Below are positions 37,066-58,472 of a stretch of 58,472 nucleotides of DNA, in pieces. Position numbers and translations under genes: made by a program. Under the pieces are notes generated by a model, which searched no databases, had not been told where the DNA came from, and was given only the letters and a program-made list of their open reading frames with translations. Each line of letters begins with the position of its first letter. Position 1 is the first letter of the stretch. This DNA is from a virus: positions 1-58,472 of the IMG/VR virus record IMGVR_UViG_3300043468_000545, one strand, 5' to 3'.

Positions 37066-39828
37066 ATGACAATTAATGTAGCAAATACGGAATTAAATAA
37101 CACGTTTGAATTTTGGCGTGCAAGAACAAACGAACTTGCAACGCTAATGTCAAATTGTGTGATTACAACCACAGCAAATTTGGCTTCAGCCCAAACTGCT
37201 GGCAATGCTGCAATTTCAGGTAGATTTTCTGCTAATAGTTTAACAGCTGCCAATGTTTACACTAATAGTGTTCTTACTGTCAATGTTTCATCTATTAATT
37301 CTGTTAGCGAAGACTATTACTTCACAGTAAATACGACTACTCTTACTTTAGGTAATAATACTTGTAATACATACATCACGCCAATTTCTATCAGAGCTAA
37401 TAATGTTCTGGTCAATGATAATGTTGCTATCAACACTTCAGCTTTGTTTGTTGGTGATATCAACGGAAATCTAGTTGTAAATAAAACTAGCGTTTATATA
37501 CAAAGTAATGATATTGTTAATACCGTATTAACTTCTACAAGTTTCAGAGTTTCGAACAATAACGTTAATTCTAACTTAACATACAATACATTAACAATTG
37601 GAAACGTAGTAGTAAACAGTACATCAGTGTCGTTCCCAACAGTTACTGGGACTCCTGTAATTAATTCTTCTACGATAGTTATTGGCGCTAATGTTTACGC
37701 AAATACTTCAACATTATTGATTGGTAATTCAACTGTAAACTCTACAGTCAATTCGACAATGGTTCAAATGTCGAATTCTTCCGGCACCGCCAATTTAACT
37801 CCTGTTCATTTAAGAATTGGAACTTCATTCGTCAACAGTTCAATTATAACGACAGGTAATGTTACAATAAACACAACTGCAGTTATTGCGGGTTCTATTA
37901 ATTCTCCGGATCAAGCTATAACTGCATATTCTAATAATAATGTTACTATTTACAGCGAATCAAACTCTTATTACGCTGTATATGGTAAATCGAATTCTAG
38001 TGTTGGTGTTTCTGGTGTTTCTAATACTGGCATTGGTGTTTCTGGATCTTCGGAAACAAGTTACGGTGTTATGGGTTCTGCTAATAGTGGTTGGGGTGGT
38101 ATATTCACTTCTAAATCTGGCGGTTCTCTATATGCTGGTAACAACACTACAGAATTCTTCAGAGTAGCAGTTACTGGCTATGTTGGTATTGGTAACGCTT
38201 CTCCGGCGCATGCTCTATCTATCAATGGCAACGTATACGTACTATCTTCTGTTAATATTGCAACAAATTTCGTTGCAAACACTGCAGGCATATATCATAC
38301 TGGAACTGCTAATCTAAACACTTTGACTGTAGGTTCCAATACTTCGGCCAATCAATCTATCACAGCATATTCTAATAATAACGAAGCTGTTGTTGGTTTC
38401 TCTAATACTAACTATGCTATTCGTGGTATTTCTAATACTAGCTATGGCGTTTATGGTGTATCAACTTCTAATGTTGGTGTCGTTGGTGAATCGACATCTA
38501 GTTGGGGTGGATATTTCGTATCAACTACTGGTAATTCTCTGTTTGCTGGTAACAACACTACAGAATTTTTTAGAGTAGCATCCAACGGAAATGTAGGCGT
38601 TGGTTCTTCTACTAACACAGATTCTAGATTTAGAGTTTTTGACGTTAATTCTAATGCCGGGATTAGAATAGGTTTCTCTGGTACAAGCGTAAATCAATAT
38701 GAAGCAAACACTCACAATTTCAGAGATACTTCAGGTAATATATTAGTTACTTCAAATACATCCGGCGTAGGAATAAACAACACATCTTTCATCACTAGCG
38801 ATAGATTGTCGGTTGGAGGTAATGTTTATTTTGATTCTAATCTTCGTGTTGTAACGAGCGTAAATTCTGCATCATTCACTGTAGGAACTGCTACTATCTC
38901 TAATTCCACTGGTTTTTGGACTACTGGCACAGTAAACGCTGCTGTTCATTCTGTTGGATCTGTTGTCATAGCTAATACTAGTGGTGTGTTTGTTTCTAAT
39001 TCAGTAAATGCTAATACTGTGCGTATAGGTAGTACCTCTGTAAACACATCAGTCAATTCTACAGCGTTTTTTGCTACTAATGGAACACAGACAACCACTA
39101 TCAATGCTACTTCTATTTCTACAAACGCTAATATAGTTGGCACTGGTAACGTAGATATTTGTAGTGGAGTTTCTGGTGCTGCATATGCCAATGTCCGTGG
39201 TGATTTGTTCGTTAGAGGAAACTTGCAAGTTAGCGGTAATTTGGCTTATACTGGTGTTGCTATTGGCGATGTTATTCCAGCTGGTAACACCTACAATCTA
39301 GGTAATATTAACAACAGATGGGGTTTGTATTCTGGAGAAATTATCGCTTCTGGTAATGTGTCAACTTCCAGAAGTATATCTGTCAATACAGAAATAATTC
39401 TTGGAAATACTTCTACGACTTCTTTTATTACCATTGTACCCCCTAATAACACTCAGAGGACTCAAGGTAATACATTCCTAAGCGCCAATGGTTCTTGGAG
39501 CAATCTACCTACTTTGCCCATAACTAATAATGCGGTGACAACATCAGGAACAACGGCTCAAGTTATTGACAGTGTACTGCTCTCCGATAACGACGCTTAC
39601 GAATGGTTAGTTAATGTTGTTGATAATATAACAACCGGTAGAAGACATGCCACTAAAGTTATAGCAACAACAAATTCTACTGCTATGGTTGGTACAGAAT
39701 ACGCAACAATATTCAATGTTGCATCTTTAGGAACTTTTAATGTCTCCTCTAATGCAACTCATGGTCTTTTGCAGTATACACCAGTTTCAACTTCAACAAC
39801 AGTATCGTTTAGTAGGATCAACACCTAA
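37066..39828 (+). CDS. tail fibre protein with duplicated GV-repeat module, 920 aa
   Basis: A short helical N-terminus (ELNNTFEFWRARTNELATLM) precedes long Asn/Thr/Ser-rich beta repeats. A module of about 110-140 residues occurs twice (nt about 37912-38200 and 38345-38620). Each copy has QxITAYSNNN, a run of GV.G.S pseudo-repeats, SxWGG, and AGNNTTEFFRVA followed by a VGIG/VGVG turn. The C-terminus ends with a compact beta domain (GRRHATKVIATTNSTAMVG). It is probably a trimeric fibre. The last base is shared with the next start (TAATG). Confidence 0.75.
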   Translation: MTINVANTELNNTFEFWRARTNELATLMSNCVITTTANLASAQTAGNAAISGRFSANSLTAANVYTNSVLTVNVSSINSVSEDYYFTVNTTTLTLGNNTCNTYITPISIRANNVLVNDNVAINTSALFVGDINGNLVVNKTSVYIQSNDIVNTVLTSTSFRVSNNNVNSNLTYNTLTIGNVVVNSTSVSFPTVTGTPVINSSTIVIGANVYANTSTLLIGNSTVNSTVNSTMVQMSNSSGTANLTPVHLRIGTSFVNSSIITTGNVTINTTAVIAGSINSPDQAITAYSNNNVTIYSESNSYYAVYGKSNSSVGVSGVSNTGIGVSGSSETSYGVMGSANSGWGGIFTSKSGGSLYAGNNTTEFFRVAVTGYVGIGNASPAHALSINGNVYVLSSVNIATNFVANTAGIYHTGTANLNTLTVGSNTSANQSITAYSNNNEAVVGFSNTNYAIRGISNTSYGVYGVSTSNVGVVGESTSSWGGYFVSTTGNSLFAGNNTTEFFRVASNGNVGVGSSTNTDSRFRVFDVNSNAGIRIGFSGTSVNQYEANTHNFRDTSGNILVTSNTSGVGINNTSFITSDRLSVGGNVYFDSNLRVVTSVNSASFTVGTATISNSTGFWTTGTVNAAVHSVGSVVIANTSGVFVSNSVNANTVRIGSTSVNTSVNSTAFFATNGTQTTTINATSISTNANIVGTGNVDICSGVSGAAYANVRGDLFVRGNLQVSGNLAYTGVAIGDVIPAGNTYNLGNINNRWGLYSGEIIASGNVSTSRSISVNTEIILGNTSTTSFITIVPPNNTQRTQGNTFLSANGSWSNLPTLPITNNAVTTSGTTAQVIDSVLLSDNDAYEWLVNVVDNITTGRRHATKVIATTNSTAMVGTEYATIFNVASLGTFNVSSNATHGLLQYTPVSTSTTVSFSRINT

Positions 39829-40160: not shown

Positions 40161-40163
40161 TAC

Positions 40164-40433
40164 ATGGTAAATGTTGTTGTTTCAAGAAAAAGAAATGTTA
40201 GAGTATCCTCAAACGCTACAGCTGGCGTTATTGACACAACTGTACCCGTAACGCTTAAAAATGCTCCCGTATTGTCTAGTGGGCTGGATACTATAGACGA
40301 ATTAAGAGACGTAGGTTTGACTCAAAGAACCGACGGATCTACTTTAATATACGACAATATTACCGACACCTATCAGGTTAAACCATTGGATTTTGATAAT
40401 ATAGTAGGCGATTTAGATGGTGGAGTTTTTTAA
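40164..40433 (+). CDS. small structural protein, 89 aa
   Basis: A short basic N-terminus (VVVSRKRNVRVSSN) is followed by a conserved-looking C-terminus (DTIDELRDVGLTQRTDGST, LIYDNITDTYQVKPLDFDN, then DLDGGVF). The ending DGGVF echoes the DGGSF end of the 547-residue fibre gene just downstream, perhaps a common assembly tag. Function is unassigned. Confidence 0.6.
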   Translation: MVNVVVSRKRNVRVSSNATAGVIDTTVPVTLKNAPVLSSGLDTIDELRDVGLTQRTDGSTLIYDNITDTYQVKPLDFDNIVGDLDGGVF

Positions 40434-40436
40434 AAT

Positions 40437-40444: not shown

Positions 40445-40472
40445 TATAAAATTTCAAAGGAGCGCTGTCTAG

Positions 40473-42116
40473 ATGGCCAACAATAGAATTCAGATCAAAA
40501 GATCGGTAGCTAATGCTACAGTAACAGGTCTTTCAAATGGTGAATTGGCGTTCACCCAAGCCAGTAACACCCTTCATATCGGACTCCCAGACGGATCTGG
40601 CGTTCTAAGGATCGGTGGCGCTCAGTACCCAGGCGTATTGACTAATAATCATGCTCTTGTCGCTAATACGACTGGGGGCATTGATAAGGTTATTGTAGCC
40701 AATGCAGTAATTGCCACTCTTACAGCTAATGGTTCAGCAGGTACCAATGGCCAGGTTCTTGTTACCAATGGCACAGCCATATACTGGGGAACGGGTACTT
40801 CCGGCGCTAACACTCAGATCCAGTTCAACGATTCAGGCGTTGCTAACGCTACTGCTGGATTTACGTTCGATAAAGTTACCAACACTATGTTCATCGGTAA
40901 CTCCATTACTTTTGGAGCTACTGGTAACAATCAACTTATCAGCCTTTCTAACAGCTTCCTAGAAGTTCGTGGTGGTTGGGCAGATAATAACGGTGTTCTT
41001 AGTGTTATTGGTGGTAATTATACAGACGGTAACTATGCTAAAATCGCCCTTCAAGGCAATAACAAAACAGTTACCATCGAATCTGATAACACTCTTGTTA
41101 AGACTCTTGCAAACTCAACTATTGCCACAGCCAATTTAACTGGCGTATACGTTGTTGGAACTGTTAATGCTGCTGTTCATTCTACAGCCGGAAATTTCTC
41201 TAATACCTCTGGTAATTATCCTTTATCCAATACAGTAGGTGCAGAACTTGGTGACGCTGATCAACGTTGGGTAATTAGTGCCAATACAATTTCAGCAACT
41301 GGTTTGATTGACGGTAATGCTGGTTTAACTATTACTGGCACAGCCAACGTTTCTTCTGCTATCAATATACCAGGTTATCTAGTTGCTAATCAGAGCGGTA
41401 TCTATCATACTGGTACTGTTAACGCTCTGTCTTACACTGTTGGTTCAAATTATAGCGTTAACAGTACTGCTCTTGTATACGGTGGCGGAACAGTCAATGC
41501 CACTTCTGCAACTCTTAATGTTCGCGATGCCAACATCTCTGGAAACCTTATTGTTTCTGGTACTGTTATTTCTATTAATGTTGCAACTCTTTCTGTAAAC
41601 GATAATATCATCTCTCTTGGCGACAATAATCTAACAACAGATCTTGTCGACACTGGTTGGTATTCTCCAGCTGGTAACTCTTCGGCAGTATGGTATTCAG
41701 GTTTCGTCCGTGTTGCTGGCGATTCTTCTGTAACGAATCCATACTTCAAACTATTCGCAACACCAGTTAATCCTAATACAGCTAGCACTATAGCTGCTAA
41801 TGCGGCAACTGGTACTCTCCAGGCATTCCTAACGCCTTATGGAGTCGGTGGTGCATTCGTTGCCAATAGCTCTAACGTTCAGATTACAGCTAACAGTACT
41901 ATTGGCGTAAATATCGTAGCCAATACTCTAACTCTAACAACTGCTCTTGCAGGAATAGATGGTGGTACAGGTTACAAGACTACAACGAATCAGGCAATTC
42001 TAGTAGGTAATACATCCAATGGTTATTCTCAGCTAGTACTAGGATCCGAGGGATTCGTTCTACAGTCTAATGGTACTGCTCTTCTTTATGACTATTTGGA
42101 TGGTGGATCTTTCTGA
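40473..42116 (+). CDS. tail fibre protein, 547 aa
   Basis: The N-terminus MANNRIQIKRSVANATVTGL, then GELAFTQASNTLHIGLPDG, is the common fibre attachment domain. The middle contains beta repeats and a segment near residues 340-440 (NISGNLIVSGTVISINVATL, then DNIISLGDNNLTTDLVDTGW) seen in phage fibres. The C-terminus ends LLYDYLDGGSF. It has its own late promoter, a strong ribosome binding site and unusually host-like codons (CGT/CGC rather than AGA), so it is probably the most strongly expressed fibre here. Confidence 0.75.
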   Translation: MANNRIQIKRSVANATVTGLSNGELAFTQASNTLHIGLPDGSGVLRIGGAQYPGVLTNNHALVANTTGGIDKVIVANAVIATLTANGSAGTNGQVLVTNGTAIYWGTGTSGANTQIQFNDSGVANATAGFTFDKVTNTMFIGNSITFGATGNNQLISLSNSFLEVRGGWADNNGVLSVIGGNYTDGNYAKIALQGNNKTVTIESDNTLVKTLANSTIATANLTGVYVVGTVNAAVHSTAGNFSNTSGNYPLSNTVGAELGDADQRWVISANTISATGLIDGNAGLTITGTANVSSAINIPGYLVANQSGIYHTGTVNALSYTVGSNYSVNSTALVYGGGTVNATSATLNVRDANISGNLIVSGTVISINVATLSVNDNIISLGDNNLTTDLVDTGWYSPAGNSSAVWYSGFVRVAGDSSVTNPYFKLFATPVNPNTASTIAANAATGTLQAFLTPYGVGGAFVANSSNVQITANSTIGVNIVANTLTLTTALAGIDGGTGYKTTTNQAILVGNTSNGYSQLVLGSEGFVLQSNGTALLYDYLDGGSF

Positions 42117-42159: not shown

Positions 42160-42717
42160 ATGGAGTCAAGCGAAAAAGGTACTGATAGAGAAAATTATTT
42201 AACAGCTTATATCCAGAAGCACGAAACATTGCTTCTGGATTCTATGCGTAAGAACATTGATTTTGAAATTAAATTGATGGCTTATAGCACTTCTTATAAT
42301 GAAGTTTTAGAACAATTAGAAACAGTTAAAAAAGAATTGGCTGTTCAGACTGATTTAGTTTCACAAGCCACTAATGGTCTGCAGAGTCTCACAGTTGAAA
42401 AGAATCAACTGGTAGGAAGAGAAGAAAGTTACAATAAGAGAATAAAAGATCTTGAGAACAGAATTCGTGAATTAGAAACAGCTGTTGCTCAAAAAACAGC
42501 TGATCATAATAATGCTGTTCGTGCTTTGGAAGATTATAAAAAGAACGTTGAAAATTCCACTAAAGAAACATCTGAAATACGTAGAGAATTACAATTACGT
42601 GATGAAGAACTAAATAAAATTTATAAAGAAAATGAAGATTTGAAGGCTAAATTGCCTCAAACAAAAAAGGTGGTAAAGAAACCAACAGAGGTAATATTAC
42701 CTCCTGATGAATTTTAA
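42160..42717 (+). CDS. coiled-coil protein, 185 aa
   Basis: Long heptad pattern from about residue 45 to 165 (VLEQLETVKKELAVQTDLVS, KRIKDLENRIRELETAVAQK, IRRELQLRDEELNKIYKENE), with a basic C-terminus ending LPPDEF. There is no membrane segment. CGGAG upstream is the ribosome binding site. It lies between two fibre genes, so it may be a fibre-assembly chaperone or a structural linker. Confidence 0.7.
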   Translation: MESSEKGTDRENYLTAYIQKHETLLLDSMRKNIDFEIKLMAYSTSYNEVLEQLETVKKELAVQTDLVSQATNGLQSLTVEKNQLVGREESYNKRIKDLENRIRELETAVAQKTADHNNAVRALEDYKKNVENSTKETSEIRRELQLRDEELNKIYKENEDLKAKLPQTKKVVKKPTEVILPPDEF

Positions 42718-42719
42718 TA

Positions 42720-42753: not shown

Positions 42754-45700
42754 ATGGCAAACACTGTGTTCAAACTGCGACGTTCATCGGTCGCAGGCAA
42801 GGTACCGAATACATCTACTCTCGCAATCGGCGAGCTTGGTCTAAACCTTACCGACAAAATTCTATACTCTTCAGACGGAACCAATGTTTTCGAAATTGGT
42901 TCTAACAACACAATTATAAGAGTAACAAATACAGCATTCATTGCTAATGCTACCGTCAATTCTATCGCTTTCACAAACGCTGGTATTACTGCTACCTCTG
43001 GAGTCCTTACATGGAATCCGGACGAATCAACGCTTGATCTTGGTTTGGCTGGTAACAACTCTATCCTTAAGATCGGCCAAGAAACTGTTTACTTAGTCAG
43101 AAATGCAACAGGTTCCACTATTACAAAAGGAACTGTTGTTATGGCCAATGGCACAATTGGCAATTCAGGTAGAATTAAAGTAACTCCTGCCATAGCGAAC
43201 AATTCTGTTCCTTCGCATTATATTATGGGTGTTGCTACAGAAAACATCACAAATGGTAGTGATGGTTATGTGGCTCATTTTGGTAAAATTCGCGGCATTA
43301 ATACAACAGCTTGGCCAGACGGTTCTATTCTATACGCTGATCCTGCCAATACTGGTGGATTGACTGCTACTAAACCAACAGCACCAAACCACAAAACAAT
43401 TGTTGCTATTGTTATTCACTCTGCTTCAAATGGTATTCTGTTCGTAAGACCAACATTTGGTTCTGATCTTGCTGACGATGAAAGAGTAGAATTAACAAGC
43501 ATTGCCAATGGTGATATGCTTGTTTACAGATCAGCTACGAGTAGATTTGAGAATACTAAAGATCTAATAGTAAATTCAATAACAGCCAATAATACTAAAG
43601 GAGCTAATGGTCAAGTACTTGCTTCTAGTGGAAATGGCACATATTGGTTTACGCCGATCGGCGGTGTTTTGCCTGTTCAACAGCAATATACAGCCAATGG
43701 TTCTACTACTTCCTTCATAGTTACTGGCGGATATGTACCTAATACTATTAGTGTGTTTCTTAACGGTGTAATGTTAAGAAACGGCATAGAAGTTGATGTT
43801 ACTTCTGGGTCTGAATTTACTATATCGCCAGCACCAGCCAATGGATCTTTTATAGATGTTGTTGGTCAATCACGTCTGTATTCTACTGGTGTTAATACAA
43901 TCGTTTCGCAACAGTTTACTGCTAATGGAACTGCTAATAGTTTCGTTGTAACTGGTGGTTATATCGCTAATAGCGTATTGGTGTTCTTGAATGGTGTTAA
44001 ACAGATACCAGGTACAGACGTTGATATTAGTTCGGGCGCTAATGTTGGGTTCTATTCAACACCATCAAATGGTTTTATCGTCGATGTTTATGGTTATCAA
44101 ACGTATGTGTCATTAGGCGCTAACACTATTACTGTTGGTTCCAATTTAACTATTGGTACTGATTCTATCAATATTGGTAATTCAACAGTTAATACGCAGA
44201 TTACTGCTGGTAACATTGCTCTTAATGGTTCATTATTGAAAATTGGTAATAGCACAGTTAATACCAGTTTAGATGGCGGAACTTTAGTTTTAGGAAGTAA
44301 TACTGCTACATTTGGTAACGCTGTTTACTTTGTTGCTAATGGTAATGTTGGCGTTGGTAACGCAACACCAGCGCATAAATTATCAGTTGGAGGTTCGGCA
44401 TATTTTACTGGCACAATTACATCAAACGCCGGAACTCCGATTGTAGCGATATCAAATAATTCATATACACCACAAATACAATTATACAATACAGCTAATG
44501 ATGTTAGCGGCGCATATTTCTCTTGTATTAAATCAAGAGGCTCTGGCGCATCTCTTAATGGAGATACTTTAGGCACTATTGCTTTTACTGGTTCGAATTC
44601 TAGTGGTTCTGGTATACTTTCTGGATACATAGCAGCATTACAAACTGGTGATACTGGAACTACTGTTCCAATGGATATGGTATTTTTAACATCAAATTCT
44701 AGTATTGGCAATCAAGAAAGATTAAGAATTGCTCGTGATGGTAATGTTGGTATTGGCACTTCTTCTCCAGGAGCAAGATTACAAGTAGTTGGCGCTTCTG
44801 GAGCAGTTCAATTCAGATCAGGAACTGCCAATGGTTATTTGGAAGTTAATGCTTTTGAAGCTGGAACAGTTTTTGCAGTTTTAGGAGGAACTAGTTTAAG
44901 CGGTGGTAGTATAGGAACACAAGCAAACGTTCCTTTAGGTTTGTTGGCTAATAATACAACACACGCTCTTTTAGCTGCTAATGGTAATTTTGGTATTGGA
45001 ACAACTTCGCCTGACGGCAAATTAGCCGTAACAGGCGGTAGAACTATATTAAGACCTTCGAACGAACCATATGCTCTTGGTTTGTTTTATGGAACTGGTT
45101 CCAATCCTGTATATATTGGTTCTCCTGCTGCTAACTCGTTCCAGATTTCTAGGGCAGGCGGCGATGCAGTATTTAATATTGATGGTAATGGCAATACCGG
45201 TATTGGTAATACAACACCAGCACATAAATTATCAGTAAGCGGAAATTCGTTTATTAATGGATTTCTTACTTTAGGATCTGCTGGCACTCCAGGTTTTATT
45301 TCTTACAGAAGCACTGGAGTTTCTCAATTTGATGTTGGTCTACTTGGTGGAGATTCAGATTCTACTGCTTTTGTGTATAATAGAGCAAATGGCGGTCTTG
45401 TCTTTGGCGCCAACAATGCTCAAAGAATGGCTATTTCTGCTGCTGGTGATGTGAATATAGGTACAGCTGCAGAAGCTGGTAATTCGTTAAGGTATTTTGA
45501 TATTCAGAATGCCAATACAGGTTCTTCAGCTGGCGCAATTATGCGATTTATCACTGCTAATGCTGCTGGCACCGGTGTTACTACTGTTGATATTGTAAAA
45601 TATAAAAACGGTCTATTTGTCATTAATAATAACGAACCTTCTGGCATTTTTACGCTTAATAATGCTGGTTCGGAGAGAATTCGTATTAATAGTTTTGGTA

Positions 45701-47646: not shown

Positions 47647-50004
47647 ATGTCAACATTAACAAACGATCTAGCCAGACTTGCAAATAGTGCTAACGTATTA
47701 GCGACTGCTATTACGGTAAATTCTAGTGCTATTACTTCTGTTAATGTTGGTGGTATTGCTATCAATTCTTCTGGTTTTAGTGGAGTTGCTAATCAGGCAA
47801 CATATGCTAATGGGTCTTTTACTAATACATTCACTGTAGGAACAGCAGCTTATTTCGTTGCTAATGGTAATATTGGGTTTGGGCAGAATAATCCTATTTA
47901 TCCTTTAGATGTTTATAAAAATGACTTAGGCGTTATAAGAGTTGGAGGCGGTTCAGGCACAAACCAAGGTGGCGCTTTTTATATAAAATATGCTAACGTT
48001 TCTTCTAATGAAACGTTAGCAGCATTCGGTGATGGCGCTAGAATCGTCGGAGGAACACCCGATCAGATTGTTACACTATATACTGGCATTGTACCATTAA
48101 ATTTTCACGTAAGTGGATCGGAACGCCTACGTATTTCAACCAATGGCAATATTGGGCTTGCTGCATGTACTACTCCAATAGCTCGTTTTGATGTCGGCTC
48201 TGTGACTGTAGCAAATACTCCAATGATGGTATTGGCTAGACCTTCTGGCGGCGATGTTAATTTCAATCTAGCAGCAAGTTCTGGATCAGGCACAGCAGTA
48301 AACACAGAATTTTGTAGATTAGGATTGTTATATTCTAATAATATTCATAATGCTGGTATAGGTTTTTATCGTGGAAACGATACCACTGGCGGTTATATGA
48401 CATTTAATGTCAATAACTGGGCAGAAGCTGTACGTATCGCTGCTAATGGTAATGTTGGTATTGGGACTAGTAATAATACAGCTAAATTTGCTGTTCAAGA
48501 ACTTGGACTTTCTGTGTTTAAAACATCTGTTAATTTGGTTACAGAATACACTGTGAACACTTCTGCTACGAGTTTATTTGATCATGATTTTTATGGAGGC
48601 GTTGCTGGTGGTAGTGGTTTTTATCGCATAAGAAAAGCTGGCGGAACTTTTGCATCTCCTACTCTCGTATCATCTGGTTCTGTTCTAGGTCGTTGGGGAG
48701 CTATGGGTTATGATGGCACACAGTTCCTAGATGCTGGTTTGATTAGAGTTGCAACTGACGGTACGCCAGCATCAAACAATATGCCTGGTGCTATTGAATT
48801 TTGGACAACAGAAACATCGACTCTGTCGCAAAAAATGAAAATTTCTGCCAATGGTAACGTTGGTATTGGAATTACTAATCCGCAAACTAAATTACATATA
48901 ATAAAAGATTTTGCTGCAAGTAGTCCTGAGTTTACAGGCGCACAACCTATGAAAAAAAGATGGGTGGCGACTGTCAGTCAAGGACCTAATGGTCATACTT
49001 ACAAAATTTGCACCATATCAAGGGATCCTATTAATTGGGGCGAACAGAGTCCAATAGAAATTATTGCAAGAAACACTTATTATGCTGGAGGATCATATTC
49101 AAGATGGGTATTTACGCACGGATATGGTATAGCTCCTTCTTTGGTATGCGTTGAAACTGGTGGCATTTCTGGTAACATTCCTAATCTTTATCTAGGATCA
49201 GAAGTAACAGTCAATAGTAATTTAAGATATACTCCTATATTCTGCGATTCTCCTTACTATAGACAATTTAATTTTGAAATTAGTCATAATTACCAAGAAG
49301 TATCTTCTATAACTGCTGCAAATCAAATTTTATTTGATAATACATATACTGCTAATTCTAGTGCTACGATGTATAGCGGTAATATGACGCTTGCTCCTAA
49401 TGGTGGAGGCGTTATTGTTAATGGAACTTCTTTTCTTTCTGGAATGAGTGGAACTTTTGCAGTAGGATCAGGTAGACAAATATCTATCGATGGCGGCAAC
49501 GGCGGAGAAATTCGTTTCAAAGGCGATACTGGTGGATGGGCGATGGGTTCATATGCTATTGGTAGTTCCGGAACCAATAGAGGTGGGTTTGGTTGGCTCG
49601 GCGGCGTAGACAGCGTTAGTTATTATTGGGTAGCAACAGCTTATAATGGCACTGGAGTTCAATTATCATATGGCGGTAATTCTTGGTCAACACTATCTGA
49701 TTTAAGAGATAAAAATGTATATAACAATATTGAAAACGCTCTTGATAAAATCAGTTCAATAAATTCAGTATATTATAACTATAAAACAGACGAAGAAGAT
49801 ACGCCTCGTCGTGTAGGTTTTATAGCTCAAGAAGTTCAAGCAGTTTATCCTGAAGCGGTAACAGAAATTCAGAGAGAAATTGATAATCCAACCGAAGAAA
49901 CTAAACGCCTTAGTTTGTCTTATACTGATATGATTCCTCTGCTTCTTCAGGCTATTAAAGAACTCAAAGAAGAGTTTGACGAATACAAAAGAACGCACCC
50001 CTAA
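47647..50004 (+). CDS. tail fibre with C-terminal S74 self-cleaving chaperone, 785 aa
   Basis: Residues 1-75 are an Asn/Ser-rich attachment-like region. Three GNIG/GNVGIG turns follow. Residues about 420-660 form a large receptor-facing domain. The last 107 residues are a peptidase S74 intramolecular chaperone: SDLRDK with Ser684 and Lys689, then RRVGFIAQEVQAVYPEAV, then a coiled coil. In this family the chaperone trimerises the fibre and cleaves itself off before the Ser. So the mature fibre is probably 683 residues plus a released 102-residue chaperone. Late-type motifs flank the gene. Confidence 0.88.
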   Translation: MSTLTNDLARLANSANVLATAITVNSSAITSVNVGGIAINSSGFSGVANQATYANGSFTNTFTVGTAAYFVANGNIGFGQNNPIYPLDVYKNDLGVIRVGGGSGTNQGGAFYIKYANVSSNETLAAFGDGARIVGGTPDQIVTLYTGIVPLNFHVSGSERLRISTNGNIGLAACTTPIARFDVGSVTVANTPMMVLARPSGGDVNFNLAASSGSGTAVNTEFCRLGLLYSNNIHNAGIGFYRGNDTTGGYMTFNVNNWAEAVRIAANGNVGIGTSNNTAKFAVQELGLSVFKTSVNLVTEYTVNTSATSLFDHDFYGGVAGGSGFYRIRKAGGTFASPTLVSSGSVLGRWGAMGYDGTQFLDAGLIRVATDGTPASNNMPGAIEFWTTETSTLSQKMKISANGNVGIGITNPQTKLHIIKDFAASSPEFTGAQPMKKRWVATVSQGPNGHTYKICTISRDPINWGEQSPIEIIARNTYYAGGSYSRWVFTHGYGIAPSLVCVETGGISGNIPNLYLGSEVTVNSNLRYTPIFCDSPYYRQFNFEISHNYQEVSSITAANQILFDNTYTANSSATMYSGNMTLAPNGGGVIVNGTSFLSGMSGTFAVGSGRQISIDGGNGGEIRFKGDTGGWAMGSYAIGSSGTNRGGFGWLGGVDSVSYYWVATAYNGTGVQLSYGGNSWSTLSDLRDKNVYNNIENALDKISSINSVYYNYKTDEEDTPRRVGFIAQEVQAVYPEAVTEIQREIDNPTEETKRLSLSYTDMIPLLLQAIKELKEEFDEYKRTHP

Positions 50005-50035: not shown

Positions 50036-53000
50036 ATGGCACAGAACAGAGAATTAGGCGAACTTGGTCAGATAGTAACTGTCAACACTGCTTCTGAAAG
50101 CATTAACGTTGGCAATACTGTCATCCATACCAGCGGTATTACTGTTGGTAATACTTCTCTACATAGTAATGGTATTACTATTGGGGGAGTTAATGTAAAC
50201 GGTTCTTCTTTCTCTGGCACTTCCAATAACACTTTATTTGTTGGTTCTGTTTCTGCTGCTAATGTTGTATCAAACGCACAATTACAGTCTAATCTTGCTA
50301 ATTATTTGCCATTAACAGGTGGTACTATTACTGGCGATTTAATTGTTACTGGTACTACTTTTAGTGTCAATACAACAACTCTTGACGTCAAAGACCTTAA
50401 CATCACAGTCGCTAAAGGAGCAGCTTCGGCGGCTGCAGCTAATGGTGCTGGTATTACTGTTGATGGTGCATCGGCTACTCTCACATATGATAATGTTGGC
50501 AATACTTGGACCTCTAGTATTGGGCTAAAATCAACTAATCTAACGACTACAACTAATACAGTTACTATCGGAACATCAACTTACTTTTTGTCTAATGGTA
50601 GCGTAGGTATTGGAACGACAACTCTCGCCAGTACCAAGCTCGTTGTGAATGGTAACATTGCAACAATCGGCGGTGCAGCATCGGGTATCTCTCAAGCTGC
50701 CGGAACATTCTATTACGATATCGCTAATGATTATGCGGTAATTTCCTCTCTCTACAATGGCGTCGCGTGGAAACCTTTTGTTGTTCGTTCTGCTGGGATG
50801 TATTTTAAAACCAGCTCTGACGTTGAGGCCATGCGTATTGATAATGCTGGTAACGTAGGTATTGGAACTGCACCAAATCCTGCGTGGAAAGTCGTTGTTG
50901 ATAGCTCTAGTCTTTTCGGATCCGGATTATACGACTGCAGAAGTAATACAAACTTCCCGGTAGTTGGAACAAACAGAACAAGATCAGGAACAACTTCCGT
51001 TCAATCTGGTGACATTCTTGGTCGTTTTATGTTATCCGGTTGGACTGGAACTTCAACAGCAGGCGCTCATATTGAGGGTATTGCATCTGGAACAATATCA
51101 AATACGGCCTTGCCGATTGACATGCGTTTTTCAACAGTTCCTTCTGGTTCTGTTGTAGCATCAGAACGAATGAGAATAACAGCGGATGGTAATGTTGGTA
51201 TTGGGACCAGCAGTCCGACAAATTTGCTCCATTTGAAGAAAACAGGGCAGTGTTACCTCGATGTCGAAGGTTCTACTCAATCTGGTTTTATCTTAAGAAG
51301 AGGTGATGGAAGCAATGGTTATGCGATTCTTCGCTCTCTCCTTAATGACAATTCTCAAAACTTTGCCATTTATGATAGCGTAAACGCTGCAACAAGATTT
51401 TATATCAATAACAGTGGTGGTGTAGGAATTGGAACAACTACTTTTTCGGTGGGTTCAACGCTTGAGGTTGCAGGAAATGCATACTTAACTACTCCAACAT
51501 ACGCCTTTCTTGGTGTTAATAGCGGGACCGTCCAAGCGCAATTTGCAGCGAATGCCGGTGGCACAGTTGATGTGCGTGCTGTATCAAACCATCCTATGAC
51601 GTTCTTCACGAATAACGCTGAACGTATGCGTATCACCAGCGGTGGTGACGTTGGTATTGGTACTAGTACAATAAATGCTCGTCTTGCTCTTGGTGCGCTT
51701 GTATCAAATAAATTGTTTTCTCTTTATGACGACGGTACCAATCAATATGGCATGGGCATTGCTGGTTTTCAATATAGGTTGTTTGCTGCGGACAACGCTA
51801 GTGTTTGCTTAGGACAATATAACCGTGGAACAGACACATTCACTGAACGTATGCGAATTGATGCCTCGGGTAACGTTGGTATTGGCACCAATTCTCCCGC
51901 ATACAAACTGGACGTAGCAGGAGCGGCTAAAGTTGGAACAACAGCTAATCATACATTAAGATTTGGTGAACTAGGAACTTTAATTAGCGCAGACACTCAT
52001 TTATCGCATAATTTTTATTATAATTCCGGATGGGCTGTTATAAACACAGCGGTTCCTTCTTCTTCAATAAAATTGGGGTCGACTACATCTAATCAAATTG
52101 AATTTTTGTATGCTGCAGCTAACTCTATTGCAATATCTTCTTCGTTTTCGTTCAATAGTGCTGGAGTAGGGCAGACTTCCGGTTCTTGGCGTTCTCCGGT
52201 ATTCTATGATTCGGATAATACTGCATATTATGTTGATGCTGCTTCAACATCGAATCTAAATGGTCTGACCATAAACAGCGCCCTAACAGGTTTGGGCGCT
52301 AACTTTACTAATGATATTAGAATTTATAGAAATGGCGCAACGAATCAAGGCGTTATCTATTTTGCACAAACTGGTGACTATTATCTACACTGGACTAGTT
52401 CAAACTTTTATTTCAATGGTGGTTTTCTTCAATCAACTGGTTCTATGCGTTCGCCAATTTTTTATGATTCTGATAATACTGGATATTATGTTGATGCTGC
52501 TTCAACATCGAATCTAAACCAATTGCAAGTGATTGGTCTAACTGTAGGACAGGGTCAGACATCATCAACTATCACAATGTTTGATAGTGATAACGGAAAC
52601 AGATTCATTCATGCTAATTCAGGTAGATTAGGATTCTTGAATCTTGCTGCGGATGGTTGGTGGGCATGGAATGATAATGCTGGAAATTGGTTCTCTGCTT
52701 CTTCTATGCGTTCGCCGATCTTCTATGATTCGGATAATACTGCTTTTTTTGTTGATGCAGCATCAACATCGAATATGCATCAAATCAATGCTGGTGGTGG
52801 CACTCAAATTGTTCCTTCGCCAGGTTCTGGCGTCGCTTGGTTTAGCACAGCAGCATATGGTGTGTCACAAGGCGATAATAGAACCCATTTTGGTTATAAT
52901 GCTAGCGGAACCTATGTAAATTATATTCGTGGCTCCTATACCGAAATACATGGCGACGCACGATCACCAATCTTTTACGATTCAAATAATACAGGCTATT

Positions 53001-54811
53001 TTATTAATCCTGATGGAACATCTGTTCAGGTAAGTATTGACCTTAGAGGTAAAATTAATTTTCCGTCAGGTTCAGGCGGTGGTACTACTTTCTCTGCCAA
53101 TCATTACAGTATGGGTGAAGATATTGCTAATGGTGGATGGTCACATCCTCATTACTCGGACTTGATTATTGGTTACCATACCGGTATTCGTATTGGCGCT
53201 CATTACTCTGGTGTAAGATTCTATAGTGATTCACCAACAACGGATGCTAACAATGATGGAAATGGAGATAATGGTGAAACACTAATCATGACTGTTGGCG
53301 GTCATGCTGGTAGTCATTCTTTTGTTATTGCACATGCCTCAATGCGTTCACCAATCTTCTATGATTCGGATAATACTACATATTATACTGATCCTGCTTC
53401 TGGTTCAAGATTAGGAGGATTAGTAACATTCGATACTGCTTATGGTTCTTCGCGCCTACAAGATGGTATGGGGTTTGTTATTAATGGTAATTATACTAAT
53501 GGTCTATATAGTCATAGATTTAGAAAATGGGATGAAGGTAATGGCGTTCCTATGTATGTTCAATACACAACTGGAACTATCGGAACTTGGACTAATATAG
53601 CAAAATTTGGACCAGGTGGTAACGGAGAAACAGCAGAATTTTCAGTTTTTGGTTTTGGTTATGCCACTGGTTCGTGGCGAGCACCAATCTTCTATGATTC
53701 AGATGATACAGCACGTTTTATCGATCCTGCTAATGGAGGATTCAATCTTGTTGGCGGTACTAGTAATAGAGTTTCGTTTATATGCAACGATTCAGGTATC
53801 TTTGTAGGAAATGCCGAAGGTAATGGCGTCAATCATGTCAGACTAGGTGCAGCATGGGGCCGCCCAGGAGTTTACTCTCCAACGTATTTGAGTTTGATGG
53901 CAGATGGTAGTCAATATATTGAATTTGTTACAAATAATGTTCAAAGAGGATACGTTAATAATTCTTCGGATTTATATATCTATGGTTCTATGAGATCTGG
54001 TTCGTTTATTGATAATAACGATAGTGCTTGGTATGTAGATCCAGCAGGGTATACAAGAATTTCTGCTCTCCAATCCATTGGTACTAGTGGTAACTGGAAT
54101 ACAGATTTCCAAAATACTCCTAGTAATGGACTTAGATATACTGGAGACTTGAATAGCGGAACAAACTGTCCTACCGGTGGCGGCTGGTGGTTTCTACAAA
54201 ACTATCGCCACTCTAACTCTTCTAATTTTTGGGGCGTGCAGGTTGCTTGGGGTTGGGAAGATAGAGCCAACGAACTTTATACTAGAAACGTATCTGGAAA
54301 TAGTTTTGGCGGTTGGACTAGATATTGGAACTCTGCTAATGCTCCCGGCGCAATTCTACAAGTTCAGCAAACTCATTGGAGTGGAGTAGCTACTGTAGCA
54401 TCATCGTCGTTTGTTAATCATCCTAATCTTTCTGTATCAATTACACCAAGATCAACCAGCAGTAGAATTTTGATTATGGTTTCAATGCAAGCTACTGTTT
54501 ATAATCTAACCACACAATTAAGATTTACTAGAAATGATACACCTATTGGTATTGCGGATGCTGCTGGTTCAAGAGTTCGATCTACCTTTGGCGCTTTACC
54601 AACTATCGGAGACGGCAATCATCAATGGAATCCGTGGAATTTTCAGTTTCTAGATTCACCAGGAACAACCGCTGCTCTGACATATAGAATACAGTTGAAA
54701 ATGCAGGGTGGTACAACCGCATATCTCAATCGTTCTATTAATGATGCTGACAACACAGATTGGGCGCAGAGAACAACATCTACTATAACTGTTATGGAGA
54801 TTGCATCGTGA
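50036..54811 (+). CDS. giant tail fibre protein with repeated FYDSDNT modules, 1591 aa
   Basis: N-terminus NRELGELGQIVTVNTASESI, then beta repeats and LPLTGGTITGDLIVTG-type segments. Five or more GNVGIGT turns lie in residues 170-640. Residues about 715-1350 carry about seven modules opening with RSPIFYDSDNT.YYVDAAS. Residues about 1340-1435 look like a pyocin-knob-type region (GWWFLQNYRHSNSSNFWGVQ). The C-terminal 140 residues form a beta sandwich (RSTSSRILIMVSMQATVYN). No S74 domain. Probably the main long receptor-binding fibre. Its stop overlaps the next start. Confidence 0.8.
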   Translation: MAQNRELGELGQIVTVNTASESINVGNTVIHTSGITVGNTSLHSNGITIGGVNVNGSSFSGTSNNTLFVGSVSAANVVSNAQLQSNLANYLPLTGGTITGDLIVTGTTFSVNTTTLDVKDLNITVAKGAASAAAANGAGITVDGASATLTYDNVGNTWTSSIGLKSTNLTTTTNTVTIGTSTYFLSNGSVGIGTTTLASTKLVVNGNIATIGGAASGISQAAGTFYYDIANDYAVISSLYNGVAWKPFVVRSAGMYFKTSSDVEAMRIDNAGNVGIGTAPNPAWKVVVDSSSLFGSGLYDCRSNTNFPVVGTNRTRSGTTSVQSGDILGRFMLSGWTGTSTAGAHIEGIASGTISNTALPIDMRFSTVPSGSVVASERMRITADGNVGIGTSSPTNLLHLKKTGQCYLDVEGSTQSGFILRRGDGSNGYAILRSLLNDNSQNFAIYDSVNAATRFYINNSGGVGIGTTTFSVGSTLEVAGNAYLTTPTYAFLGVNSGTVQAQFAANAGGTVDVRAVSNHPMTFFTNNAERMRITSGGDVGIGTSTINARLALGALVSNKLFSLYDDGTNQYGMGIAGFQYRLFAADNASVCLGQYNRGTDTFTERMRIDASGNVGIGTNSPAYKLDVAGAAKVGTTANHTLRFGELGTLISADTHLSHNFYYNSGWAVINTAVPSSSIKLGSTTSNQIEFLYAAANSIAISSSFSFNSAGVGQTSGSWRSPVFYDSDNTAYYVDAASTSNLNGLTINSALTGLGANFTNDIRIYRNGATNQGVIYFAQTGDYYLHWTSSNFYFNGGFLQSTGSMRSPIFYDSDNTGYYVDAASTSNLNQLQVIGLTVGQGQTSSTITMFDSDNGNRFIHANSGRLGFLNLAADGWWAWNDNAGNWFSASSMRSPIFYDSDNTAFFVDAASTSNMHQINAGGGTQIVPSPGSGVAWFSTAAYGVSQGDNRTHFGYNASGTYVNYIRGSYTEIHGDARSPIFYDSNNTGYFINPDGTSVQVSIDLRGKINFPSGSGGGTTFSANHYSMGEDIANGGWSHPHYSDLIIGYHTGIRIGAHYSGVRFYSDSPTTDANNDGNGDNGETLIMTVGGHAGSHSFVIAHASMRSPIFYDSDNTTYYTDPASGSRLGGLVTFDTAYGSSRLQDGMGFVINGNYTNGLYSHRFRKWDEGNGVPMYVQYTTGTIGTWTNIAKFGPGGNGETAEFSVFGFGYATGSWRAPIFYDSDDTARFIDPANGGFNLVGGTSNRVSFICNDSGIFVGNAEGNGVNHVRLGAAWGRPGVYSPTYLSLMADGSQYIEFVTNNVQRGYVNNSSDLYIYGSMRSGSFIDNNDSAWYVDPAGYTRISALQSIGTSGNWNTDFQNTPSNGLRYTGDLNSGTNCPTGGGWWFLQNYRHSNSSNFWGVQVAWGWEDRANELYTRNVSGNSFGGWTRYWNSANAPGAILQVQQTHWSGVATVASSSFVNHPNLSVSITPRSTSSRILIMVSMQATVYNLTTQLRFTRNDTPIGIADAAGSRVRSTFGALPTIGDGNHQWNPWNFQFLDSPGTTAALTYRIQLKMQGGTTAYLNRSINDADNTDWAQRTTSTITVMEIAS
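52190..54050 (+). repeat. about seven repeated modules in the giant fibre gene
   Basis: Module starts lie near 52190, 52448, 52706, 52960, 53342, 53676 and 53990. Each contains a variant of RSPIFYDSDNT.YYVDAAS. The first three are almost identical at DNA level over about 70 bases; the last is more divergent. Spacing is 250-380 bases. Confidence 0.8.
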
Positions 54812-55158: not shown

Positions 55159-55173
55159 TAAGAGGAAAATAAA

Positions 55174-55551
55174 ATGGCAGTTACATATACATGGAAAGTG
55201 ACCGGTCTCAAAACAACTACGATAAATAATACGTCAGATGTTGTAGTCCAGACATACTGGGAGAAGATTGGCAAAGACGGAGAGATTGAAGGCAAATTTT
55301 CAGGCGCTACTCCATTTACCGCCAATTCTATGCCAGCAGGAACAACATTCATACCGTTTTCTGAATTGACAGAAGAAGATGTTCTAGTGTGGATCAAAGC
55401 AGTTGTGGTTGGTTCTTATGAAGAACATGTCAACTCTCGAATTCAAAAACAGATTGACGAAAAGAAAAACCCAGTGATAGATGCAACACTACCATGGGCT
55501 CCAGCAAATACTGTTGCAAACACTACAACAAATACTACAGCAAATACTTAA
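55174..55551 (+). CDS. DUF7936-like small tail protein, copy 1, 125 aa
   Basis: A beta-rich start (AVTYTWKVTGLKTTTI), then VVVQTYWEKIGKDGEIEGKF, a FSELTEEDVLVWIKAVV helix and the terminal LPWAP motif, are shared with the genes at 55758 and 56100. The tail after LPW is an Asn/Thr repeat (NTTTNTTANT). The family accompanies fibre genes in T4-like phages; its role is not known. AGAGGAAAATAAA is the ribosome binding site. Confidence 0.7.
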   Translation: MAVTYTWKVTGLKTTTINNTSDVVVQTYWEKIGKDGEIEGKFSGATPFTANSMPAGTTFIPFSELTEEDVLVWIKAVVVGSYEEHVNSRIQKQIDEKKNPVIDATLPWAPANTVANTTTNTTANT

Positions 55552-55564
55552 TAGGAGAAATAAT

Positions 55565-55744
55565 ATGGATAAGAATGTAAAACTTGAATTGACAATTGAC
55601 CAGCTTAATGTTGTTATGCTCGGACTTTCTAAGTTACCATTAGAAACAGTTCTAGCAACTTTTACAGAAGTGCAGAAACAAGCTGATGCTCAACTAAGAG
55701 GCCCAAGACCCGAAGGCCCTCTTTCTGATAAAGTAATTAACTAA
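55565..55744 (+). CDS. small conserved protein, 59 aa, paralogue of the gene at 4444
   Basis: Matches the product at 4444 over the first 40 residues (VKLELTIDQLNVVMLGLSKLP), with a different Pro/Gly-rich tail. ATG 55565 follows TAGGAGAAATAAT; a longer frame from 55481 overlaps the upstream gene and lacks a ribosome binding site. It lies between two DUF7936-like copies, suggesting a small-gene cassette. Confidence 0.65.
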   Translation: MDKNVKLELTIDQLNVVMLGLSKLPLETVLATFTEVQKQADAQLRGPRPEGPLSDKVIN

Positions 55745-55757
55745 AAGGTTATCACAC

Positions 55758-56084
55758 ATGGCTATTTCATACGAATGGATTATTTCACAACTAGAATGCT
55801 ATCCGGAAAAAGATAAGAAAAAAGATGTAGTATTCACAGTGCATTGGAGATATGCAGCCAAAGACGGTGAATATTATGCAGATGTTTATGGTTCTCAGGG
55901 TCTTAACGTCGACAATTTAAAAAATTTCACAGCATATTCAGATTTAACTAAAGAAGATGTTGTTGAATGGTTGGAAGAAACTATGGGCGAAGAAAAGATA
56001 GAAGGATTTCAGTCATCTTTAGCGTCAGCTATAGATAATTTAAAGAATCCTCCAGTAGTAACTCCGCCTCTACCTTGGGCATAA
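55758..56084 (+). CDS. DUF7936-like small tail protein, copy 2, 108 aa
   Basis: Same layout as copies 1 and 3: AISYEWIISQLECYPE start, VVFTVHWRYAAKDGEYYADV, YSDLTKEDVVEWLEETMG helix and PPLPWA at the C-terminus. It is the most divergent copy, about a quarter identical by eye. AAAGGTTATCACAC precedes the ATG. Confidence 0.7.
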   Translation: MAISYEWIISQLECYPEKDKKKDVVFTVHWRYAAKDGEYYADVYGSQGLNVDNLKNFTAYSDLTKEDVVEWLEETMGEEKIEGFQSSLASAIDNLKNPPVVTPPLPWA

Positions 56085-56099
56085 TATAAGGAGTTTAAG

Positions 56100-56465
56100 A
56101 TGCCTTTAACATACACATGGAATATTAAAAACATAAAAACCATGAAAGACGAATCTGGCGAAGATTTGGTTTCTGAAATTTATTGGGTTAAAACTGGCAA
56201 AGATTCAAAGGGCGTTGAAGGTTCTTTCGAAGGAGTTGTTTATGCTAATTCTATTCCAGTATTAGAGGAAGAAGAATCTAAGTTTATCCCTTACAAAAAA
56301 TTAAAAGAAGAGAATGTTCTTAATTGGGTCAAAAAAGTAGTTTCTTGTTACGAAGATCACATTGACAGAACTATTCAGAAACAGATTGATGAACAGAATA
56401 ATGTATTAGTTGACTCTCCTTTGCCATGGGTTTCTTCTGCTAAATCAGAAAAAACGTCTAAATAA
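56100..56465 (+). CDS. DUF7936-like small tail protein, copy 3, 121 aa
   Basis: Closest to copy 1: PLTYTWNIKNIKTMKDESGE, IYWVKTGKDSKGVEGSFEGV, IPYKKLKEENVLNWVKKVV, and RTIQKQIDEQNNVLVDSPLP followed by W. The C-terminus is a short Lys/Ser tail. AAGGAG upstream is a strong ribosome binding site. Confidence 0.7.
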   Translation: MPLTYTWNIKNIKTMKDESGEDLVSEIYWVKTGKDSKGVEGSFEGVVYANSIPVLEEEESKFIPYKKLKEENVLNWVKKVVSCYEDHIDRTIQKQIDEQNNVLVDSPLPWVSSAKSEKTSK

Positions 56466-56495
56466 TAAAAACAATACCATAGGGGATAGGGAACC

Positions 56496-58472
56496 ATGGC
56501 GTCATTAGATTTCAGAGTAAAAAACGGTTTAGTAACCGGAGCAAATACCACAACATTAGGAACTGCAGTTTCCGTTCTTAGTGGAGGAAATGTTGGAATT
56601 GGTGATTCTAATCCAAGCCAAAAACTTTCTGTTTCTGGAACTCTGAACGCTACTGGTGCCATAACACAAGCTGGTAATCAAGTACTTCATGCCGCCAATT
56701 TTAATTCATACACACCAACATTAACAGGAACTGGCGCTTCAGGAACCTGGGGAATTAATATTACCGGTAATGCTGTAACTGCTGGTGGATTATCAGTTTC
56801 TTCCGCTCAAGCTGTATCTACTATAGTTGCTAGAGATTCTAGTGGTTTTGCATATTTTAATTACATCAATAGTAATACATCTAATGGTGAAAATCCAACA
56901 GTTTCTCAAATTATTGTTACTAATGGCTCTGATGGATTTTTCCGCAAAGCTGGTATAGGTCATTTAACTTCGGCTGTGCAGGCCAGCGCATCTGGAAACT
57001 GGAATATTAATTCTGTTAATATTACTCAATTCCCACTCAACCAAAGCGTAACTACTACTGCTGCCCCAACCTTTGGTGGTTTAACTTCAACAGGAAATTT
57101 AACAGTAGCAGGAGCAGATATTTACTCTTATAGAGCGGGCGGTACTACTGGAGTATTGTTCTTAAATAGTGCTGGTAGTAGATATCTTTACTGGGACAAT
57201 TCAGTTTATACTCTTCATGGTGCAGAACTAAACATCAATGGTCATAGAGCTCTGAATGCTGGTAATTATAATTCATACGCTCCAACATTAACCGGTGGTA
57301 ACGCTTCTGGTACTTGGGGTATTAATATTACTGGTTCTGCACCAACATTAACTACTGCTAGAACTATTAACGGTACTTCTTTCAATGGATCTGGCAATAT
57401 TACTACTGCTAATTGGGGAACTGGTAGAACAATTACTATTGGTGCTACTAGTAGAACTGTTGATGGATCCGGCAACTATTCTTGGTCATTAGCCGAAATT
57501 GATGCTCCATCTAGAGCTGGTTCTGGTGCTTCTGGCACCTGGGCTATTAATGTTACAGGTTGGGCGACCGGCATAGAATCCACACAGTCTTCGTTGGGTT
57601 ATTCTATATCTGGTCAAAACATAGATTATGGCGGCCATGGCGGACCTCAAGTAAGAAGCCAAGGCGGCGGCGCAGCGATGATGTCATTTCATCGCGTCGG
57701 TTCTTATGCCATTAACTTCGGCCTGGGCAACGACAACCAACTTCGTACTGGTGGTTGGTCTCGTGGCGGTAACTATGTTATTTTAGATTCAGGAAATTAC
57801 AATTCATATGCTCCAACATTAACCGGTGGTAACGCTTCCGGAACCTGGGGAATTAATATTACTGGTAATGCTGGTTCAGTGAACGGTAATATTCAAGGTA
57901 CAATGGTTAGTAATATTCGTTGGAATTCTGGAGCAAATTGGCTTATTAATGGCGACAGTTCTTTTGATTTAGAAGCTGGTGGCGTTGTAGGTTTCTGGGA
58001 TGGTGGCCGTGGTGGTTGGTCTCTTAGAGCAAATCACAACGACCATATTCGAATGGTTGAATCTGGTGGTAATGTATACGTATATGGTTCGAGACTATTT
58101 AATGATTCTGGTCAACAAGCAGTATTTAATAACGGTGGTAACTGGAGTATCAGATCTTTCAATTATACTGATTATGGTGGGGTCGATCAAGATTTAAGAA
58201 CTTCTGCATCGCCTTCGTTTTCAGCAGGAACATTTGCTGGATTACACGCTATTAATAGTTTAGGCGGCGCTTTTAGAACTGGCGCTGGTAACTATGGTAT
58301 AAGAATATATGCTGGTGGTGGTTCGGATTCTACAGCAAGCGTTATACAATTTACTAATTCTGCTCAGAATGTTCAGATAGCATCTATTGCTGCTACTTCT
58401 TCAGCATTCATATTGGGTTCCGACAACAATACTACTGTTTATATCAAAGCTAATGGTTCGAACAAATATCAG
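56496..58472 (+). CDS. tail fibre protein, partial (at least 659 aa, runs off window)
   Basis: Open from ATG 56496 to the window end with no stop. AGGGGATAGGGAACC precedes the ATG. The N-terminus (ASLDFRVKNGLVTGANTTT) and the NVGIGDSNPSQKLSVSG turn are fibre-like. The GASGTWGINITG motif recurs four times (near 56730, 57300, 57530, 57840), usually after NSY.PTLTG. Another conserved fibre piece is QLRTGGWSRGGNYVILDSGN (near 57740). The segment 57580-57780 is richer in G/C with different codons. Probably another long fibre; the C-terminus is not visible. Confidence 0.75.
   Translation, partial: MASLDFRVKNGLVTGANTTTLGTAVSVLSGGNVGIGDSNPSQKLSVSGTLNATGAITQAGNQVLHAANFNSYTPTLTGTGASGTWGINITGNAVTAGGLSVSSAQAVSTIVARDSSGFAYFNYINSNTSNGENPTVSQIIVTNGSDGFFRKAGIGHLTSAVQASASGNWNINSVNITQFPLNQSVTTTAAPTFGGLTSTGNLTVAGADIYSYRAGGTTGVLFLNSAGSRYLYWDNSVYTLHGAELNINGHRALNAGNYNSYAPTLTGGNASGTWGINITGSAPTLTTARTINGTSFNGSGNITTANWGTGRTITIGATSRTVDGSGNYSWSLAEIDAPSRAGSGASGTWAINVTGWATGIESTQSSLGYSISGQNIDYGGHGGPQVRSQGGGAAMMSFHRVGSYAINFGLGNDNQLRTGGWSRGGNYVILDSGNYNSYAPTLTGGNASGTWGINITGNAGSVNGNIQGTMVSNIRWNSGANWLINGDSSFDLEAGGVVGFWDGGRGGWSLRANHNDHIRMVESGGNVYVYGSRLFNDSGQQAVFNNGGNWSIRSFNYTDYGGVDQDLRTSASPSFSAGTFAGLHAINSLGGAFRTGAGNYGIRIYAGGGSDSTASVIQFTNSAQNVQIASIAATSSAFILGSDNNTTVYIKANGSNKYQ

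Follow-up and report, generated by a model that had tools for sequence, protein, structure and literature searches.

The stretch of DNA analysed here (the window) is a 58,472-base virus record of a T4-superfamily phage, IMG/VR IMGVR_UViG_3300043468_000545, and it ends in an array of tail-fibre-like genes. The array begins right behind a VrlC-like gene, and its last open reading frame (ORF) is open at the contig end. Baseplate genes lie upstream of it, namely gp6, a gene for a gp7-like wedge protein and the gene of the VrlC-like DUF4815 protein; gp25, ahead of gp6, was assigned by place, and gp8 by place together with a Pfam match just under the cut-off. Seven fibre-like ORFs are present within 37066-58472, and with one more ORF at 28077 they sum to 6,339 residues, in agreement with a preliminary description of this DNA that had counted seven such genes plus the one at 28077 and over 6000 residues. 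As the ORFs are long and have relatives, their sequences give no reason to regard chance as an issue. PHROGs tail-fibre families match the ORFs at 42754, 45975, 47647, 50036 and 56496. Those at 37066 and 40473 gave no PHROG match at E 0.01, no Pfam match over the cut-off and no match to PDB sequences at E 0.1, and their fibre status rests on repeats, position and relatives. When positions 15000-39000 were compared with phage records, no near DNA match was found at megablast level.

Genes of the island and its left border

All genes described below lie on the plus strand. The protein encoded at 28077..29012 (311 residues) had been counted among the fibres in the preliminary description. Its C-terminal domain is Gp53-like (PF21882, over the Pfam cut-off, E 5e-6), and positions 3-36 of its profile correspond to residues 2-35 of T4 gp10 (E 5.5e-7), the only gp10 segment with a significant match in a protein of 311 residues versus 602 in gp10. 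The profile also gave a weaker match to a Klebsiella phage tail fibre connector (E 0.003), and the N-terminus recurs in a P-TIM40 protein annotated as T4 gp10-like. At the place of the array, the T4 gene order is gp9-gp10-gp11-gp12-wac. Because of the gp10-like start and the location between the gp7-like and gp8 genes, the 28077 protein is probably a baseplate pin, and its assignment as a tail fibre was set aside.

The left border of the island is the VrlC-like protein (2085 residues, 30596..36853; PF16075, E 5e-60; phrog_358). Its profile matches the DUF4815 chain of entry 9euf, the phi812 baseplate (E 2e-79), and the protein matches annotated VrlC genes, as at the left border of the island type designated host recognition cluster (HRC). 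The same query matched 162 records named Salmonella, counted by name, and a literature search for DUF4815 in baseplates listed one paper, on Wolbachia genomics. A table in PMC10892097 gives 311 spectra for VriC in virions of phage Sajous1. Behind VrlC is a small gene (36843..37064) whose product belongs to phrog_473, a virion structural protein (E 3.5e-11).

Fibre A (920 residues, 37066..39828) consists of an anchor (residues 1-260), a variable middle and an end domain. This domain was modelled from 8 sequences (mean predicted local distance difference test score, pLDDT, 71.5; confident beyond residue 60), and the predicted fold resembles that of the T4 gp9 C-terminal domain (Z 12.4, 105 residues, 3.4 A). 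In T4, gp9 is the long-tail-fibre connector, and on this model fibre A is likely a connector or proximal segment. Its anchor was found among phage records in DLP_6 only. The next gene encodes a 110-residue protein (39828..40160) related to the L-shaped tail fibre assembly family; it matches phrog_1084 (unknown function, E 2e-25) and phrog_3304 (L-shaped tail fiber protein assembly, E 5e-23), and 139 phage records contain relatives at E 0.01. It is followed by a mini-protein of 89 residues (40164..40433) ending LDGGVF, which had no match in phage records at E 0.1 and whose profile picks up a 90-residue Melnitz protein ending NGGTF. Fibre B (547 residues, 40473..42116) has an IKRS anchor (residues 1-150), a variable middle and the end LDGGSF; its anchor gave no match in phage records at E 0.01. 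A coiled-coil protein of 185 residues (42160..42717) ends LPPDEF.

Fibre C (1073 residues, 42754..45975) starts with an FKLRRSS anchor, which resembles the N-terminus of fibre B and also starts annotated T4-like long or L-shaped tail fibre genes (E about 1e-4). Its residues 941-1072 correspond to entry 8i4m, the fibre gp28 of cyanophage P-SCSP1u (E 9e-22). Fibre D (453 residues, 45975..47336) has a C1q-like head (PF00386, 29.5 bits vs cut-off 23.7, E 1e-6), and six peptide patterns found no relatives of it among viral contigs. A small conserved protein of 91 residues (47349..47624) precedes fibre E (785 residues, 47647..50004), which ends in Peptidase_S74 (PF13884, 54.8 bits vs cut-off 22, E 1e-14). 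The site motif is SDLRDK, that is Ser-Asp with Lys five residues after Ser, which we take to be the functional residues of the S74 site. S74 is a chaperone or autoprotease domain serving in folding and not a tip; as it belongs to this known chaperone family, S74 was set aside as a receptor head.

Fibre F (1591 residues, 50036..54811) contains GNVGIG and PIFYDSDNT repeats and has no Pfam match. When its last 262 residues were modelled, residues 15-106 of the model matched the R1 pyocin fibre 6cl5 (Z 9.2, 79 residues, 2.1 A). After this knob-like region comes a TNF/C1q-like jelly-roll, which the preliminary description did not list; its best fold matches are the fucose/blood-group lectins PLTL and BC2L-C (Z 11.9-12.4). 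By sequence, fibre F matches orf22 of entry 9efk (E 1.4e-16), for which a literature search found no publication. The four C-terminal designs proposed earlier differ in their support: the Gp53-type, C1q and S74 domains were found by Pfam, and a pyocin-knob-like region by fold only, in a model of moderate quality. Repeats of fibres C, E and F, and more weakly those of D, match the Bdellovibrio fibres 8oml and 8ond.

Three DUF7936 paralogues (55174..56465; 55174-55551, 55758-56084 and 56100-56465; PF25590, E 1e-16, 4e-30 and 5e-18) separate fibre F from the last fibre, and blastp detected their relatives within islands of related contigs (three in G017, two in G030 and one in G020). The last fibre (at least 659 residues, 56496..58472) is cut by the contig end, and relatives of it have an S74 end.

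Conserved frame and variable cargo in eight lineages

A scan with the fibre A anchor yielded 43 loci, 19 of which were examined further; 11 of the 19 contained gp13 and five of these 11 were fetched. A search with gp6 contributed further loci (15 of 22 examined further), so that eight lineages, the window included, could be read through the island. Near-identical contigs were counted once (G002, G004 and G013 with G006; G012 and G015 with G008), as were contigs taken to be the same since their match scores were equal or almost so (G016 with G017; G027 and G033 with G018; G021 and G022 with G020; G023 with G030). G014, about 78-87% identical in nucleotides to G008, was used for anchor profiles and stands outside the eight-lineage comparison. 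Fibres A and B are frameshifted in contig G028, which was left out of identity means. The neck gene gp13 follows the island in all seven relative lineages; it was assigned by search in G017, G018, G020, G028 (where its frame is broken) and G030, and by sequence and place in G006 and G008.

All lineages share the order fibre A, assembly-type protein, mini-protein, fibre B, fibre C and usually an S74-ended last fibre. The 110-residue protein and the mini-protein are kept in all eight, and fibres A, B and C were each found by at least one end in every lineage. The coiled-coil protein (by hidden Markov model) and the last-fibre anchor were each present in seven, G028 being without both; an S74 end accompanies the last-fibre anchor in six of the seven other lineages, with the site SDERLK or SDKRLK in G006, G008, G017 and G020 and SDAIFK in G018 and G030. 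The C-terminus LDGG.F is common to the mini-protein (eight of eight lineages) and fibre B (seven of eight, B of G028 being frameshifted), and the two proteins are otherwise unlike. The coiled-coil proteins end in DEF in six of the seven cases.

Averaged over pairs from seven lineages, the N-terminal, middle and C-terminal parts are 61/35/52% identical in fibre A, 79/33/59% in fibre B, 75/25/28% in fibre C and 57/29/44% in the last fibre (its middle and S74 means computed without the window). Fibres A and B are therefore conserved at both ends, as expected for adapters or segments, and fibre C at its anchor only. Between these fixed parts, the content is hypervariable and non-syntenic and includes tail fibres, as in the HRC. 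This division into frame and cargo with conserved N-terminal anchors is new here for this uncultured clade.

The island had been called unusually large. Summing ORFs of at least 300 residues, the cut window has 7 ORFs with 6,028 residues, compared with 0 to 5,243 residues in 14 isolates (the highest value, of S-SSM7, includes enzymes) and with 5-9 ORFs and 4,804 to 6,023 residues in 6 relatives from its own clade. For G008, eight enzyme-like ORFs were left out by eye and three RCC1-like ones kept; G028 was left out of the sums, and Mosig of the residue comparison as its island was fetched in part. The interval from VrlC to gp13 was read in 15 named phages, including HTVC008M, Syn1 and S-SSM7, and in 13 of them it measured from 0.8 kb (SynMITS9220M01) to 28 kb (S-SSM7); in DLP_6 it runs across the ends of the record, and in Mosig, where it was read in part, match positions put it at about 35 kb. 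No ORF of 300 residues was seen in this interval of SynMITS9220M01 and S-SRM01. The island is thus large against sequenced isolates and ordinary within its clade, and published means are larger still (44.6 kb for pelagimyophages, 34.2 kb for cyanomyophages; Zaragoza-Solas et al., PMC7029224). The claim of size consequently stands for the 14 isolates, and we reject an exceptional arsenal as a special trait of this phage within its clade.

Several other features of the relatives were observed by eye. The G008 island (locus L035, record 81630-92167) encodes three proteins with RCC1-like repeats and a series of ORFs for enzymes of sugar/heptose type. G006 (locus L026, record 57017-58817) encodes three small head-like proteins that are paralogous, have short anchors and resemble the end of a 1191-residue fibre at 51855. 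Homing-endonuclease-like ORFs are located in or beside the island in G006 (46899), G017 (75238), G020 (119018) and G030 (block 20864); the first of them has a NUMOD3 match below the cut-off (E 8e-4), and the other three were recognised by eye.

Change of kinship inside fibre A

The window and G006 share a single 28-kb match (86.9% nucleotide identity) which ends at about codon 264 of fibre A. For the genes from the ORF at 13744 through VrlC, protein identity is 85-96% to G006 vs 32-78% to G017, and VrlC itself gives 92% and 32%, respectively. Within fibre A, residues 1-260 are 90% identical to G006 and 41% to G017, and residues 584-920 are 40% and 70% identical, so that kinship flips from G006 to G017 at about codon 260. 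The G017 kinship is also seen in the 110-residue protein (67% to G006, 87% to G017), the mini-protein (52% and 78%) and residues 1-60 of the last fibre (56% and 88%). Other parts have their own relatives: the C1q head of fibre D is 73% identical in G020, the 91-residue protein 86% in G030 and 83% in G020, and the first 46 residues of fibre E 87% in G030. Judging from these alignments, the simplest reading is that recombination likely exchanged the island, through a crossover within fibre A and further shuffling afterwards.

A second mosaic boundary was noted near 11.5 kb. Over 7 kb (window 4620-11569) the window is 87% identical in nucleotides to G008 vs 77-83% to G006, and this G008-nearer side is opposite to the kinship of the baseplate genes. 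The same region contains a permuted two-piece tmRNA gene (8214-8670) beside tRNA-Arg(TCT), matching RF04321 with 87.4 bits and also RF01849, the alphaproteobacterial tmRNA. ARAGORN detected a tmRNA also in pieces of G008, G017 and G020 and none in the G006 piece scanned. The tmRNA may point to an alphaproteobacterial host.

Interpretation and likeness to known systems

Since relatives show the same order and named phages the same VrlC-to-gp13 place, we consider it quite probable that the array is a host-recognition island of a T4-superfamily phage, with exchangeable tips on kept adapters. According to this model, the fixed adapters would comprise the 28077 pin, VrlC, fibre A, the 110-residue protein, the mini-protein, fibre B, the coiled-coil protein and the anchors of fibre C and the last fibre, and this set would connect the fibres, as trimers, with the baseplate. 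Shafts and tips (the C1q head, the lectin-like head, the gp28-type tip and others) would be swapped as cassettes by recombination, altering the receptor range while the baseplate fit is retained. As for the earlier suggestion of either several receptor types or a branched multi-fibre tail, the former is likely because distal heads differ between relatives while anchors stay. The branched tail is possible in view of the gp10-like start of the 28077 protein, the gp9-like fold of fibre A and the relative of an L-shaped fibre assembly protein.

Several points weigh against this reading. The contig stops before gp13, so the right border of the island is not within the window. While gene order, domains, conserved anchors, variable middles and the change of kinship can be read from the sequences, we infer that the array's proteins are present in virions, form trimers, attach to the baseplate and bind receptors. 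The end of fibre A also resembles tailspike and fibre tips (Z 9-10) and may itself be a tip rather than a connector. The fibre F model has a mean pLDDT of 61 (moderate), and its tip matches jelly rolls that are not lectins nearly as well as lectins (Chlamydia Pgp3, Z 11.4; spore protein BxpB, Z 10.3). Moreover, the frame is not in all parts nearest to G017, the fibre C anchor being 79% identical in G030 (63 residues), 78% in G018 (50 residues) and 64% in G017. The junction in fibre A lies within a repeat unit of a single contig, and none of 11 loci provided a second contig containing it, in a search that may omit records very near the window. The kinship flip could hence be chimeric, produced when two strains of the same sample were assembled together. 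We regard this as rather improbable, as the window differs both from G006 upstream (86.9% in nucleotides) and from G017 downstream (e.g. 70% in residues), so that neither of these known strains fits as an exact parent; fibre A also reads through and aligns in full length with that of G017, and other lineages have the same pattern of anchor and middle. Recombination would therefore be preferred over a chimera.

How the proteins are arranged allows several alternatives. In T4, gp34, gp36 and gp37 form a composite long fibre, and fibres A, B and C might similarly be consecutive segments of one long fibre, with the most distal proteins alone touching receptors. Conservation of A and B at both ends around variable middles would suit segments joined at both ends, and the mini-protein and fibre B end alike in LDGG.F. 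Nevertheless, this tag has no known role and fibre C has the type of anchor that starts annotated T4-like fibre genes, which makes such a composite rather unlikely. A little less doubtful is one branched complex, in which fibres B to F would dock on a hub of the 28077 protein, VrlC and fibre A. Tailspikes of Ackermannviridae, encoded beside vriC, are described as forming a complex branched via gp10-like domains (PMC8432352, PMC10892097, PMC11414711), and the 28077 start and the fold of fibre A are in line with this; on the other hand, the gp10-like stretch covers about 34 residues in the 28077 protein only, and similarity to T4 gp9 is common to tailspike tips. We are equally hesitant about mostly separate fibres, each attached independently to the baseplate with its own receptor. 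Six or seven distinct N-terminal starts are discernible by eye among the seven fibres, the heads or C-terminal domains of C, D, E and F differ, and phi92 is a phage with several separate receptor-binding proteins (PMC11414711), but fibre D has no recognisable anchor and the common assembly-type protein suggests joint assembly. Finally, some proteins might be head fibres, decoration or non-virion proteins, considering that 37066 and 40473 had neither PHROG nor Pfam matches at the thresholds given above; their position by the baseplate genes, the tail-fibre families in the array and an anchor common to T4-like tail fibres make this very improbable.

If the island is indeed one of exchangeable tips, it gives a gene-by-gene view of a possible island exchange, with a near-constant baseplate, a crossover in the first fibre gene, retained adapter ends and replaced shafts and tips. 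It would also predict which ends are receptor tips and which serve as interfaces in assembly or with the baseplate, and thereby help host prediction for uncultured phages. More speculatively, and with little confidence, this uncultured clade could possess a standard plug-in chassis in which the pin, the gp9-like-ended fibre A and the frame of A, the 110-residue protein, the mini-protein and B would together make up a hub, with LDGG.F as a docking signal and a tip set swappable by a single crossover in A.

With T4, the window shares the gp10 N-terminus (28077), the fibre C anchor of T4-like long tail fibres and, as a predicted fold, a gp9-like domain (fibre A). T4 long tail fibre genes form the gp34-38 cluster, whereas the window has a VrlC/DUF4815 protein and its fibres sit in the structural block. 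The likeness to P-SCSP1u gp28 is limited to the C-terminal about 130 residues of fibre C, and P-SCSP1u is a T7-like podovirus. Bdellovibrio MAT fibres have common repeat stretches and tips which, as described in PMC10769870, include S74 and TNF-like domains, but they are cellular adhesins of a predatory bacterium and not phage tails.

Tailspike genes of Ackermannviridae adjoin vriC (PMC8432352, PMC10892097), and the sources describe conserved N-termini, variable C-termini and gene exchange; in the window, the VrlC gene lies beside the fibres. The window differs in its long repeat fibres and S74, C1q and lectin-like ends; by Pfam or PDB sequence searches, no gp10-like domain was found in island fibres, and a gp10-like start was found in the 28077 protein only. 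The island also resembles in plan the HRC, which is described for pelagi- and cyanomyophages (PMC7029224) as hypervariable, bounded by VrlC and the neck gene gp14, and containing several tail fibres. Pfam scans of the cut window found no glycosyltransferase, lipopolysaccharide-related or sugar-enzyme genes; sugar-enzyme-like ORFs were recognised by eye in the G008 island. Compared with the HRC, the window island is cut and below the published mean sizes, and it has a kept frame of small proteins in an uncultured clade. The locus type is already described, and the window adds to it a member from this clade.

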